The notes beneath the pieces were generated by a model. The model was not told the DNA's origin. It saw only the letters and a program-made list of their open reading frames with translations, and did no database searches. Positions 14,047 to 45,467 of a DNA stretch of 45,467 nt are shown here, in pieces. The position numbers were made by a program, and so were the translations under genes. The DNA comes from Polaribacter sejongensis (GTDB taxonomy: Bacteria; Bacteroidota; Bacteroidia; Flavobacteriales; Flavobacteriaceae), in contig CATITK010000156.1 of assembly GCA_949545755.1 (NCBI GenBank), forward strand, positions 1-45,467, in the 5' to 3' direction. How positions within the stretch are numbered: the first letter of the stretch is position 1; every line of letters begins with the position of its first letter.

Positions 14047-15135
14047 ATGGTTCAAAAAATTTGGTTTACACTCGTTTGGAGTTATATAAAACTTGGATTG
14101 TTTTTTTACAGTAAAAGAATTACCGTTTTAGGTAGAGAGAATATCCCAAAAAAGGGGGCTGTTATATTTGCTGTAAATCATCCTAATGGATTGTTAGATC
14201 CTTTATATGTGACCACAACAAATAGCAGACAAAATCATTTTTTGGTGAGGGCTGCATCATTTAAGAATCCGCTCATAAAAAAGATTTTGGAATCATTATA
14301 CTTAATGCCTATTTATAGAATTAGAGACGGAATTAAACAGCTTTCAAATAATCAAGAAATTTTTGAAAAATGTTTTAATATTCTAAAAAAAGGCGAAACT
14401 TTGATGATTTTCCCTGAAGGAAGTCATCATAAGAAAAGAACCATTAGACCTTTAAGTAAAGGTTTTACAAGAATCGTTTTTGGAGCTTTAGAGAGATACA
14501 AAAACTTAGAAATCACCGTTATTCCTGTAGGAATCACCTACCAACATTCTTCTCATTTTCCAGCGAAAGTAATTGTAAATTATGGAAAGAGAATAACAAC
14601 AAGAGCCATTTTTGAAACAAATACACCTGCAAAATCAATTAACATTTTAAAAGCGAAAGTTAGTGTGCAACTAAAAGAATTAAGTGTTCATATCGATGAT
14701 AATGAAAGCTATGCAGCTATTTTACAAAAGTTAAATGAAGCGCAAGTAGATTTTACAGAAGTTGAAAAAGTAAATAAAATGATTAAAAATAAATTGTTTT
14801 CTACTAGAAAATCTCCTAAAAAAAACTATTTGAAACCTCTGTTTTATCTCATTATTGTAAATAGTTGTATCCCTTTTTTACTATGGAAAACCACCTACAA
14901 GAAAATTGATGAAATTGAATTTATAGATACTTTTAGATTTGGTTTTAATTCGTTGCTTTTCCCTCTATTCTTAAGTATTCAAGGTTGGATTTTAAGTCTT
15001 TATTTTGGAAAGATGGTTGGTTTTTTTTATGTAGCATGCTCTGCTTTCTTACTTCTTATTTACTCAAAATTTGCACCTACAAATTCAAAAAAACATATTG
15101 AATTAAAGGAAGCTAGCAAGAGTGTAAAGCCTTGA
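14047..15135 (+). CDS. PlsC-type 1-acylglycerol-phosphate acyltransferase family protein
   Basis: A 362-residue membrane-associated acyltransferase. The catalytic block is NHPNGLLDPLYV at about residue 46, and the glycerophosphate-binding block is FPEGSHHKKRT at about residue 122. The C-terminal third adds two or three hydrophobic helices, making the protein longer than classical PlsC (about 245 residues), as in the larger Bacteroidota group. It probably acylates lysophosphatidate or a related lipid. The exact acceptor is uncertain. It begins 24 bases after the BASS gene. Confidence 0.85.
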   Translation: MVQKIWFTLVWSYIKLGLFFYSKRITVLGRENIPKKGAVIFAVNHPNGLLDPLYVTTTNSRQNHFLVRAASFKNPLIKKILESLYLMPIYRIRDGIKQLSNNQEIFEKCFNILKKGETLMIFPEGSHHKKRTIRPLSKGFTRIVFGALERYKNLEITVIPVGITYQHSSHFPAKVIVNYGKRITTRAIFETNTPAKSINILKAKVSVQLKELSVHIDDNESYAAILQKLNEAQVDFTEVEKVNKMIKNKLFSTRKSPKKNYLKPLFYLIIVNSCIPFLLWKTTYKKIDEIEFIDTFRFGFNSLLFPLFLSIQGWILSLYFGKMVGFFYVACSAFLLLIYSKFAPTNSKKHIELKEASKSVKP

Positions 15136-43535: not shown

Positions 43536-44294
43536 ATGAAAATCATAATCTCTCCAGCAAAATCTTTAGACTTTGAAAGTAAAGTGCCAACAAGTTTAAA
43601 CACGCAAGCTCGTTTTTTAGAACAGTCAGAGGTATTGAATAAGCAATTAAAAAGACTTTCAAAAAAAGAATTATCTAAATTAATGAAAATTTCAGATGAT
43701 TTGTCTGCATTAAATTATGATAGAAATCAACTTTGGAAAACACCTTTTACCCCTACCAACTCAAAACAAGCTATTTATGCTTTTACAGGGGCTGTTTTTA
43801 AAGGAATTGATGTAAATTCTTTAGCTGAAGAAAAAATCCCTTTACTGCAAGATAACTTAAGAATATTATCTGGTCTATATGGCATCTTAAAACCTTTAGA
43901 TTTAATACAACCTTATCGTTTAGAAATGGGAACAAGATTGCCTATTGGAAAAACTGAAAACCTCTACAAATTTTGGGATGACACGGTTGCAAATGCTTTA
44001 AATGAAGAACTAGAAAATGGTGAACTACTTGTCAATTTAGCAAGTGCCGAATACTTTAAAGTCATTCCTAAAAAGGTTTTAAAAGTACCAATGATTACAC
44101 CTATTTTTAAAGATTTTAAAAACGGAGAATACAAAATAGTGATGACCTTTGCTAAAAAAGCACGTGGCTTGATGGTTCGTTACCTTATTGATAATAACAT
44201 CAAAACGATTGAAGGATTAAAAGGTTTTAATAAGGATCGATATCGTTTTTCTGAAGAAATGTCTCTTGGAAATGAACTGGTTTTTACACGTTAA
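43536..44294 (+). CDS. yaaA: YaaA family peroxide-stress protein
   Basis: A 252-residue protein of the YaaA/DUF328 family, starting at ATG 43536 with the family N-terminus KIIISPAKSLDF. Further blocks are YAFTGAVFKGIDV (about 70), LRILSGLYGILKPLDLIQPYRLEMG (about 107-131), NLASAEYFKVI (about 167) and KARGLMVRYLI (about 209). E. coli YaaA lowers free iron and DNA damage during peroxide stress and binds DNA. The length matches the family. Its TAA shares bases with the Blh stop. Confidence 0.93.
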   Translation: MKIIISPAKSLDFESKVPTSLNTQARFLEQSEVLNKQLKRLSKKELSKLMKISDDLSALNYDRNQLWKTPFTPTNSKQAIYAFTGAVFKGIDVNSLAEEKIPLLQDNLRILSGLYGILKPLDLIQPYRLEMGTRLPIGKTENLYKFWDDTVANALNEELENGELLVNLASAEYFKVIPKKVLKVPMITPIFKDFKNGEYKIVMTFAKKARGLMVRYLIDNNIKTIEGLKGFNKDRYRFSEEMSLGNELVFTR

Positions 44295-45175
44295 TTCTTC
44301 ATTTTATACATTACCCAAGTATGGGGAGCCGTTACTGCAAATAAAATAACAAAAACAACCGTTGCAAATAAGGCTATTTGTGGAACCAATTGATATATAA
44401 ATAAAAGACCCAAAATACTAATCAACCAATAAAGCATTGCTTTTTTCACGTACGAAAGGATACTTTTCTTATCTAAACTTCCATAAATAAATTCTATTTG
44501 ATGAATAATCGAAGGTATTGAATGCCAGAGGATAAAGTATATTGCAAAGCCTAAGATTAAAGAAGAGGTTTTAAAAACAAGGAAAAGCAACAATAAATAA
44601 CAGCACTCTTTCAACAATGTTTTTAGCTGATTTCTCTTTGTTAAAACTAGGTACAAACTTCCTATCAGTAAAAAGACAACACTACTAAAAAGAGTGATCT
44701 CAATTTGAAGCTTCGTAAATGTTACACCAGTTAATTCTATCATGATTAAATCGACATCAGCAATGGATTGATAAAAAAGTAATGAAAAAATTAACAAACC
44801 ATAAGCTAAGAAATAAAAAAAATCAAATCTTAGATTTACAGCTATTTTATTACTGAGATGTTCCTCCCCAAAATGGTATGCGCTCAATAAAACAAATAGT
44901 AAAATCGCAATAAAAGAACTAATAAAATAAATTATTACACATAAAATAATGATACTAATATAGATTAAAAGGTTTTTTGTGAAATTACTTCCCTTTTTCT
45001 CTCTTTTAGATAAAATTAATAGATCATTTGCACCATGAAGGATTCCTATAGAGATTACCATAACATACGCTAGTGAATCCTCTACAAACTCTCCGAACTG
45101 AATACTTACCCAAAGCAGGAAAAATGTAAAATAAAGCATAAAATTTTGGTAATTTCGAATAAATATAGAATTCAT
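44291..45175 (-). CDS. blh: Brp/Blh family beta-carotene 15,15'-dioxygenase (retinal synthesis)
   Basis: A 294-residue polytopic membrane enzyme that cleaves beta-carotene into two retinal molecules. The conserved His positions of the family are visible: GILHGANDLLIL (about 45), AYHFGEEHLS (about 100), LWHSIPSIIHQIEF (about 217) and APHTWVMY near the C-terminus, between about eight hydrophobic helices. The divergent neighbour is a rhodopsin gene, which needs the retinal. The predicted mRNA is leaderless. Confidence 0.93.
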   Translation of the reverse strand: MNSIFIRNYQNFMLYFTFFLLWVSIQFGEFVEDSLAYVMVISIGILHGANDLLILSKREKKGSNFTKNLLIYISIIILCVIIYFISSFIAILLFVLLSAYHFGEEHLSNKIAVNLRFDFFYFLAYGLLIFSLLFYQSIADVDLIMIELTGVTFTKLQIEITLFSSVVFLLIGSLYLVLTKRNQLKTLLKECCYLLLLFLVFKTSSLILGFAIYFILWHSIPSIIHQIEFIYGSLDKKSILSYVKKAMLYWLISILGLLFIYQLVPQIALFATVVFVILFAVTAPHTWVMYKMKN

Positions 45176-45176
45176 A

Positions 45177-45208
45177 TTGCAAAGTTAATAATTTTATTCT
45201 TACATTTG
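45177..45208 (+). promoter_or_regulatory. Promoter of the rhodopsin gene
   Basis: TTG (45177-45179), 21 bases, then TACATTTG (45201-45208), a full match to the Bacteroidota consensus, 65 bases before the ATG at 45274. A weaker second candidate (TTG 45228-45230, 20 bases, TAACTTAA 45251-45258) lies closer to the start. Confidence 0.55.
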
Positions 45209-45214
45209 GTTCAA
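45180..45214 (-). promoter_or_regulatory. Promoter of blh, leaderless spacing
   Basis: On the minus strand TTG (45212-45214), 24 bases, then TAACTTTG (45180-45187), then four bases (CAAT) and the blh ATG. It shares almost all its length with the opposing rhodopsin promoter. Confidence 0.55.
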
Positions 45215-45273
45215 GGTTTATAACAATTTGTTAAACAATAAACCATTTACTAACTTAAACTTTTATAAATATT

Positions 45274-45467
45274 ATGAATTTATCTATTAATTTTCTTTCT
45301 GTTGCAAAAATGGCTACAGATGATTACGTTGGATTTACATTTTTTGTCGGATGTATGGCTATGATGGCTGCATCTGTATTTTTCTTCTTTTCAATGAACA
45401 GTTTTGACAAGAAGTGGAGAACTTCAATTCTTGTTTCTGGTTTAATTACTTTTATTGCTGCAGTTCA
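45274..45467 (+). CDS. Proteorhodopsin-like microbial rhodopsin, 5' part (3' end outside window)
   Basis: The first 64 codons of a retinal-binding membrane protein. After a short N-terminus (NLSINFLSVAKMATDDYVG), helix A is FTFFVGCMAMMAASVFFFF, the loop is SMNSFDKKWRTS and helix B begins ILVSGLITFIAAV. The DDYVGFTFFVG block and the KKW loop match flavobacterial light-driven proton pumps rather than the sodium pumps. The counterion, tuning residue and retinal Lys lie beyond the window, so pump type and colour cannot be read. A later ATG (codon 13) is possible. Confidence 0.9.
   Translation, partial: MNLSINFLSVAKMATDDYVGFTFFVGCMAMMAASVFFFFSMNSFDKKWRTSILVSGLITFIAAV

Follow-up and report, generated by a model that had tools for sequence, protein, structure and literature searches.

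In Polaribacter sejongensis, a rhodopsin gene and blh, which encodes a beta-carotene 15,15'-dioxygenase of the Brp/Blh family, are transcribed away from each other from the two sides of a 98-bp gap, which raises the question of what signals in so short an interval govern the opsin and the enzyme that makes its retinal. The window, that is, the whole stretch of DNA analysed here (45,467 nt of contig CATITK010000156.1), contains the blh ORF (44291..45175, minus strand; 294 aa), the product of which matches PF15461 (Pfam; E 9e-40) and TIGR03753 (NCBIfam; 184 bits, cut-off 95), and the 5' part of the rhodopsin gene (45274..45467, plus strand; 240 aa in all). The latter gene carries on from the end of the window into contig C149, the two contig ends sharing an identical 101-bp overlap; its first 64 aa score 21.8 bits against Pfam Bac_rhodopsin, just under the curated cut-off of 24.6.

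For comparison, blh was sought in 97 Polaribacter genomes, 28 of which carry the gene (P. sejongensis included), in 397 genomes of the family, 99 of which gave a match, a few of these weak, and in one named collection, from which the best 80 of 273 relatives were kept. Wherever both genes were found, they are divergent (173 of 173 loci, copies of the same sequence included); seven further loci have no opsin gene within the fetched stretch. Six loci were dropped, three for want of a usable blh start and three as duplicates. The distance between the two genes is about 1.2 kb, instead of about 0.1 kb, in L086, L096 and L126. In one genome (L030/L032, G064:C46), blh is split into two overlapping pieces, each of them containing a stop, as if broken, and the opsin beside it aligns over nearly its full length.

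Predicted promoters of blh and the opsin gene

The initial annotation had placed in the gap a promoter for each gene, composed of a TTG at −33 and a −7 box, and all four strings are indeed found where it had put them. The blh −7 box, TAACTTTG (45180..45187, minus strand), stands 4 nt before the blh ATG, and the opsin −7 box, TACATTTG (45201..45208, plus strand), 65 nt before the opsin ATG. Both fit the Bacteroidetes sigma-A −7 motif TAnnTTTG without a G at either n position, in keeping with the TAHH rule (PMC6847099); the boxes of some relatives have a G at an n position. The window contains 84 copies of TAnnTTTG, both strands counted (about 0.9 per kb per strand), and dinucleotide-shuffled versions of the 98-bp gap contain at least one copy on each strand with a probability of 0.021. 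As judged from the alignment, it is conservation that puts both −7 boxes far above chance: among 43 distinct Polaribacter-type gaps (Kordia and L031 left out), 27 have the blh box at exactly 4 nt from the ATG and 35 have it anywhere within 45 nt, 32 have the opsin box 50–70 nt ahead of its start codon, and 27 combine the opsin box with a blh box anywhere within 45 nt. Outside Polaribacter, the blh box, by eye, is mostly not near the blh ATG.

In the probable promoters of F. johnsoniae, box and start are separated by 4–5 nt and the −33 motif is weak (PMC6847099). Under this rule, blh transcription is predicted to start at 45175 (minus strand), the A of its ATG, and opsin transcription at 45213..45214 (plus strand); the latter position supports the opsin leader of about 60 nt envisaged in the initial annotation. 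The leaderless blh mRNA envisaged there appears likely because the distance between box and ATG is fixed at 4 nt, in agreement with the same rule (PMC6847099). If so, the blh mRNA would belong to a minority class, given that 87% of F. johnsoniae leaders are longer than 10 nt (PMC6847099) and the leaderless class comprises 5.5% of 890 mapped genes in F. psychrophilum (PMC9723704). The two predicted starts are about 38 bp apart, and the polymerase footprints should therefore overlap; the 38 bases over which the initial annotation had the promoters interlock are the span from TTG to CAA.

The −33 boxes present a different picture. The TTG assigned to the opsin promoter (45177..45179, plus strand) has a spacer of 21 nt, and TTG is found at this spacing in 4 of 32 gaps and at 17–23 nt in 8 of the 32, against a background of 0.166. 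The TTG assigned to blh (45212..45214, minus strand) lies 24 nt from its box, outside the normal spacing of 17–23 nt, and occurs there in one of 27 gaps, that of the window itself, whereas TTG at 17–23 nt is found in none of the 27. With 0/27 for blh and 8/32 for the opsin, compared to a background of about 17%, neither box is conserved or commoner than expected by chance, and both were rejected. Thus, of the interlocked divergent promoters originally proposed, the overlap is retained by virtue of the conserved −7 boxes, but the interlocking through the −33 boxes is not; the alignment across relatives, suggested in the initial annotation for both kinds of box, separates the two.

Compared to the Bacteroidetes sigma-A promoter, both −7 boxes fit TAHHTTTG and the 4–5 nt rule yields the predicted starts (PMC6847099); what differs is that two such promoters would overlap back to back, the blh one being leaderless. 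A similar case has been described in Dokdonia MED134, in which blh also adjoins the proteorhodopsin (PR) gene and a TTG...TAnnTTTG consensus is reported upstream of the latter, the same consensus being reported as absent at the opsin genes of strains PRO95 and 4H-3-7-5; the excerpts of that account describe no operator, overlap with the blh promoter or mRNA hairpin (PMC3587595). Beyond this MED134 promoter consensus, our searches of the openly licensed literature turned up neither an operator nor a light regulator of any flavobacterial rhodopsin.

The gap alignment revealed one more element, TTACTAACTTAA (45247..45258, plus strand), which is strongly conserved before the opsin ATG in Polaribacter and is represented by TTACTAACAAATC in a sister group. 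As a regulon motif it was rejected, with 2 copies in the genome versus 2+1 for the reversed control, and perhaps it is a translation-start element. An Rfam family in the gap was likewise rejected, the single match being far under its threshold and outside the gap.

An inverted repeat near light-protection and pigment genes

A feature not included in the initial annotation is a family-wide inverted repeat, TGTTTAA-N16-TTAAACA, which sits over the opsin promoter. In the window, it takes the form GGTTCAA-N16-TTAAACA (45208..45237), a predicted repressor site that agrees with the family-wide form in only 12 of 14 letters (p 0.015 in shuffles of this gap). The 45-kb window holds two N16 sites with at least 12/14 letters, including this one; the other is at 14310-14339. 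In Polaribacter, the repeat shares its first one or two bases with the end of the opsin −7 box. There, 19 of 32 Polaribacter-type gaps reach a score of at least 12/14, compared to 0.2% of other positions. Since the remaining 13 score below 12, part of the genus seems to have lost the repeat. Across all gaps of up to 260 bp (137 of 139 kept), an N16 repeat of at least 12/14 was found in 32 of the 53 gaps of the closer set, which is defined by a blh identity of at least 47% to the best of six queries and includes four Kordia, four Aquimarina and one Tenacibaculum, and in 64 of the 84 others; with other spacers (13–15 and 17–19), this score is reached in 0–12 gaps. In 26 of the 64 non-Polaribacter gaps with such a repeat, an exact opsin-strand −7 box lies inside the repeat spacer, and some gaps outside Polaribacter carry a second copy at the blh side. 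The presence of this conserved repeat at the opsin start points to a repressor dedicated to it and perhaps linked to light.

The repeat is not confined to rhodopsin loci. In 16 chosen blh-bearing Flavobacteriaceae genomes, it occurs with 15–17 spacer bases at 80 sites, compared to 4 for the reversed control. Among the 61 of these 80 sites that were fetched (in 60 stretches), the spacer is 16 in 54 and 17 in 7; one further N15 and one further N17 site are among the sites listed. In these genomes, the repeat is found near light-protection and pigment genes, namely, those for photolyase, GTP cyclohydrolase I, crtI and opsin/blh. Flanking products recognized by Pfam or NCBIfam (21 protein submissions, some proteins twice and several without a match) are photolyase or DASH cryptochrome, GTP cyclohydrolase I (folE), 6-pyruvoyl tetrahydropterin synthase (PTPS), a TetR_C_23 regulator and DUF2237. 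Named by eye were crtI, idi, msrA, peroxiredoxin (bcp)/endonuclease III pairs, htpG and fasciclin-like genes, as well as several neighbours unrelated by name, such as a thymidylate synthase-like gene and an ABC transporter; crtI beside the merR gene was found by tblastn, with a crtI query chosen by eye. Six of the 61 sites fall within called ORFs.

In the P. sejongensis genome, three sites have a clear context: an exact repeat at a photolyase operon (C18:61748), a copy with one mismatch at a TetR_C_23 gene (C18:70304), syntenic in two relatives, and a 13/14 copy between a CarH-like MerR gene and crtI (C145:4386), the spacer of the last enclosing a −7 box, TATATTTG. At one mismatch, there is no excess over the control in this genome (7 versus 6) and no clear one in two relatives (5 versus 3 and 5 versus 6); genome-wide enrichment was accordingly rejected, and it is only location and synteny that speak for these sites. 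In three Polaribacter genomes (L200, L202 and L208), a protein of 142–150 aa is encoded directly behind a repeat, beside photolyase, and precedes DUF2805 and small repeated proteins; its L200 copy has no match in Pfam or NCBIfam. Because the repeat is also present at photolyase, folE, crtI and the CarH/LitR-like MerR gene, the opsin gene and blh may belong to the regulon of a light repressor.

Candidate regulators of the repeat

In most fetched loci, the repeat is positioned at the promoter or within the operon of a CarH/LitR-like MerR regulator. P. sejongensis has one such gene (G000:C145:3477-4361). In all 31 fetched loci (the best 30 of 71 genomes plus P. sejongensis), the CarH-like gene is followed by crtI. 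In 28 of them, a repeat of at least 12/14 is found either up to 260 nt ahead of the start of the CarH-like gene or just past its end; of random 280-nt windows taken from the CarH and TetR loci, 10% contain one. A repeat of at least 13/14 is found in 11 of the 31. In 15 loci outside the genus (L276-L290), the CarH-like gene has its start codon in the right arm of the repeat, which reads ATGAACA; this overlap suggests autoregulation.

Pfam identified MerR and B12-binding_2 domains in two orthologues (L251 and L240). The best solved relatives of the P. sejongensis protein are 3whp and CarH 5c8d (Thermus; E 3e-11). Its residues 8–228 match the CarH chains and the CarH model of NCBIfam, where its score of 62.3 bits is far below the equivalog cut-off of 400 (NF052513). 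Judged by the motifs given in PMC9304148, Wx9EH is intact (W-QTETLMPAH-EH), with W, E and H invariant in three sequences, and the B12 motif D/ExHx2G-x41-SxT-x22-27-GG is represented by EVHELG, 41 residues and SMT, the GG being degenerate (by eye); SxT is absent from the L251 orthologue. Of the 71 genomes with the CarH-like gene, 46 have a gap repeat of 13/14 or better, compared to one of the nine without the gene (Fisher p 0.003, uncorrected for relatedness), where one of the nine, with a 1.2-kb gap, was left unscored. The single genome that has the repeat but not the gene is 73% complete, and its gap repeat scores 14/14.

The CarH sites described in PMC9304148 consist of direct repeats of 11 bp with TnnACA. 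Around the sites studied here, tandem copies of nnnnTnnACAn were counted in 0–3 of 108 cases at offsets of ±11, 22 and 33 bp, with small peaks only at −21 and −14 (9 each), and direct repeats of this kind were rejected. Given their absence, the operator design would differ from that of known CarH. The resemblance to CarH/LitR of T. thermophilus, B. megaterium and Myxococcus nevertheless extends to the MerR head, the B12-binding_2 domain, Wx9EH, the adjacent crtI, a half-site, TAAACA, that fits TnnACA, and a site over the core promoter (PMC9304148): the crtI site encloses TATATTTG, and the opsin site touches the −7 box. What sets the present system apart is the inverted repeat with a 16-bp spacer in place of 11-bp direct repeats, and targets that include rhodopsin and blh. 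Inverted repeats do occur in the operator of Myxococcus CarA (PMC9304148), but Wx9EH is intact here, as in CarH.

The main rival to the CarH-like protein is the TetR_C_23 regulator, the gene of which adjoins an ABC1/AarF-like kinase gene (named by eye). Were this protein to bind the repeat, the repeat would still be real but the signal would not be light. Binding to an inverted repeat at the regulator's own gene is common among TetR proteins, and here 27 of 30 loci have a repeat of at least 12/14 in the 260 nt ahead of the gene; at 13/14 or better, it is commoner at this gene (24 of 30) than at the CarH-like gene (11 of 31). Of the nine genomes without the CarH-like gene, seven also lack the TetR_C_23 gene and two have it. 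These observations have to be set against six genomes that carry the CarH-like gene and a gap repeat of at least 12/14 and have only distant TetR matches: in G006, G016, G032 and G054, the match is of 32–37% identity, with no upstream site of at least 13 and a single one of 12, and in G182 and G435 it is of 34% (TetR loci not fetched). The genes near the repeat are, in addition, light-protection genes, and a half-site distance of 23 bp is wide for a single TetR dimer. We therefore regard TetR_C_23 as an unlikely binder and, because of the six genomes with only distant TetR matches, favour the CarH-like protein, short of proof.

The opsin leader and a proposed mode of control

The palindrome may also act in the opsin mRNA, the 5' end of which is predicted to form a stem-loop (GGTTTAT...ATAAACC; 45215..45244, plus strand; −5.7 kcal/mol, z −1.6 taken alone). 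Single leaders fold weakly (mean z −1.28 sense and −0.75 antisense), and the stem starts at the predicted first base of the mRNA in 13 of 35 folded leaders. Across 31 gaps, the two halves of the palindrome fit far better within than between species: the summed folding energy is −149.5, compared to −74.3 upon permutation, with none of 1000 permutations as good (17 gaps without a plus-strand box in the set range dropped; relatedness uncorrected). The antisense strand gives −109.9 versus −52.2, again with 0/1000 permutations as good, and since this signal is as strong, the covariation is not strand-specific. An ungapped test of the inner pairs (32 rows, including six from outside Polaribacter/Kordia and two from Kordia) showed a weak excess of pairing, matched by 55 of 2000 shuffles, and G-U was not in excess over A-C, so that the test does not separate RNA from DNA. 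On these sequence data, RNA appears to be the likelier reading of the covariation, though the signal is on both strands.

Taken further, this could mean that the Polaribacter repeat now matters solely as an RNA stem-loop, affecting mRNA stability or the start site, and no longer as an operator. In L012, L013 and L039, for instance, the stem is kept although the operator letters have decayed. We give this possibility little weight, because 19 of 32 gaps still score at least 12/14 at a fixed position, compared to 0.2% elsewhere, and because the pairing signal is equal on both strands.

Proceeding from the boxes, the repeat, its neighbours and the covariation, which can be read off the DNA itself, we infer start sites, binding of the MerR protein to the repeat, a response to light and protection of the mRNA. 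The resulting scheme, which combines overlapping promoters, a CarH-like light repressor on the repeat and a structured opsin 5' end, seems to us, as a whole, somewhat probable. Two sigma-A promoters, each set by a conserved −7 box, would overlap back to back, with blh transcribed without a leader and the opsin gene with one of about 60 nt. In the dark, the CarH-like protein on the repeat would block the opsin promoter; light, sensed via cobalamin as in CarH, would release the protein and allow opsin to be made. In Polaribacter, the opsin mRNA would start with the short stem-loop derived from the repeat palindrome, which may protect its 5' end.

The initial annotation had offered a simpler model, in which competition between polymerases alone sets the ratio of Blh to opsin, with no dedicated regulator. 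The footprints expected from starts about 38 bp apart should indeed overlap, this overlap is conserved in Polaribacter, and L009, L014 and L039 are among the Polaribacter gaps that have both boxes without a good repeat. We nonetheless consider competition alone improbable, given that the −33 boxes that were meant to interlock are not conserved and that, outside Polaribacter, the blh box is mostly not near the ATG, whereas the repeat is present in 64 of 84 gaps. Nor is a fixed ratio needed between Blh, which is an enzyme, and the acceptor of its product. As for accidental boxes and palindromes in an AT-rich gap, chance does account for the two TTGs, and a shuffled gap has both −7 boxes 2% of the time, but the boxes, their spacing and the repeat are conserved over many species, making chance barely credible for the −7 boxes and the repeat and marking the gap, on comparative grounds, as a real conserved regulatory region.

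A more elaborate form of the favoured scheme, which we put forward as quite doubtful speculation, would turn the Polaribacter gap into a switch, with a single light-repressor site and two overlapping promoters, so that darkness favours blh and light the opsin gene. In the dark, the bound repressor would shut only the opsin promoter, its site spanning approximately −6 to +25 of the opsin start, and, with the competing polymerase removed, blh would be favoured, the site lying at about −33 to −62 relative to the blh start. In the light, the opsin promoter would open and its polymerase would hold blh down, and the opsin mRNA would begin with the operator palindrome folded as a protective hairpin, the same palindrome serving as a switch in DNA and a cap in RNA.

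The flavobacterial family in question is large and largely marine, and the signals in the gap would hint at the way in which its members turn on the capture of light. If the proposed control is real, rhodopsin, retinal synthesis, carotenoid synthesis and photolyase would have an operator in common and probably also a single B12-based light sensor, and light-dependent rhodopsin expression would be directly testable and tied to the supply of vitamin B12.
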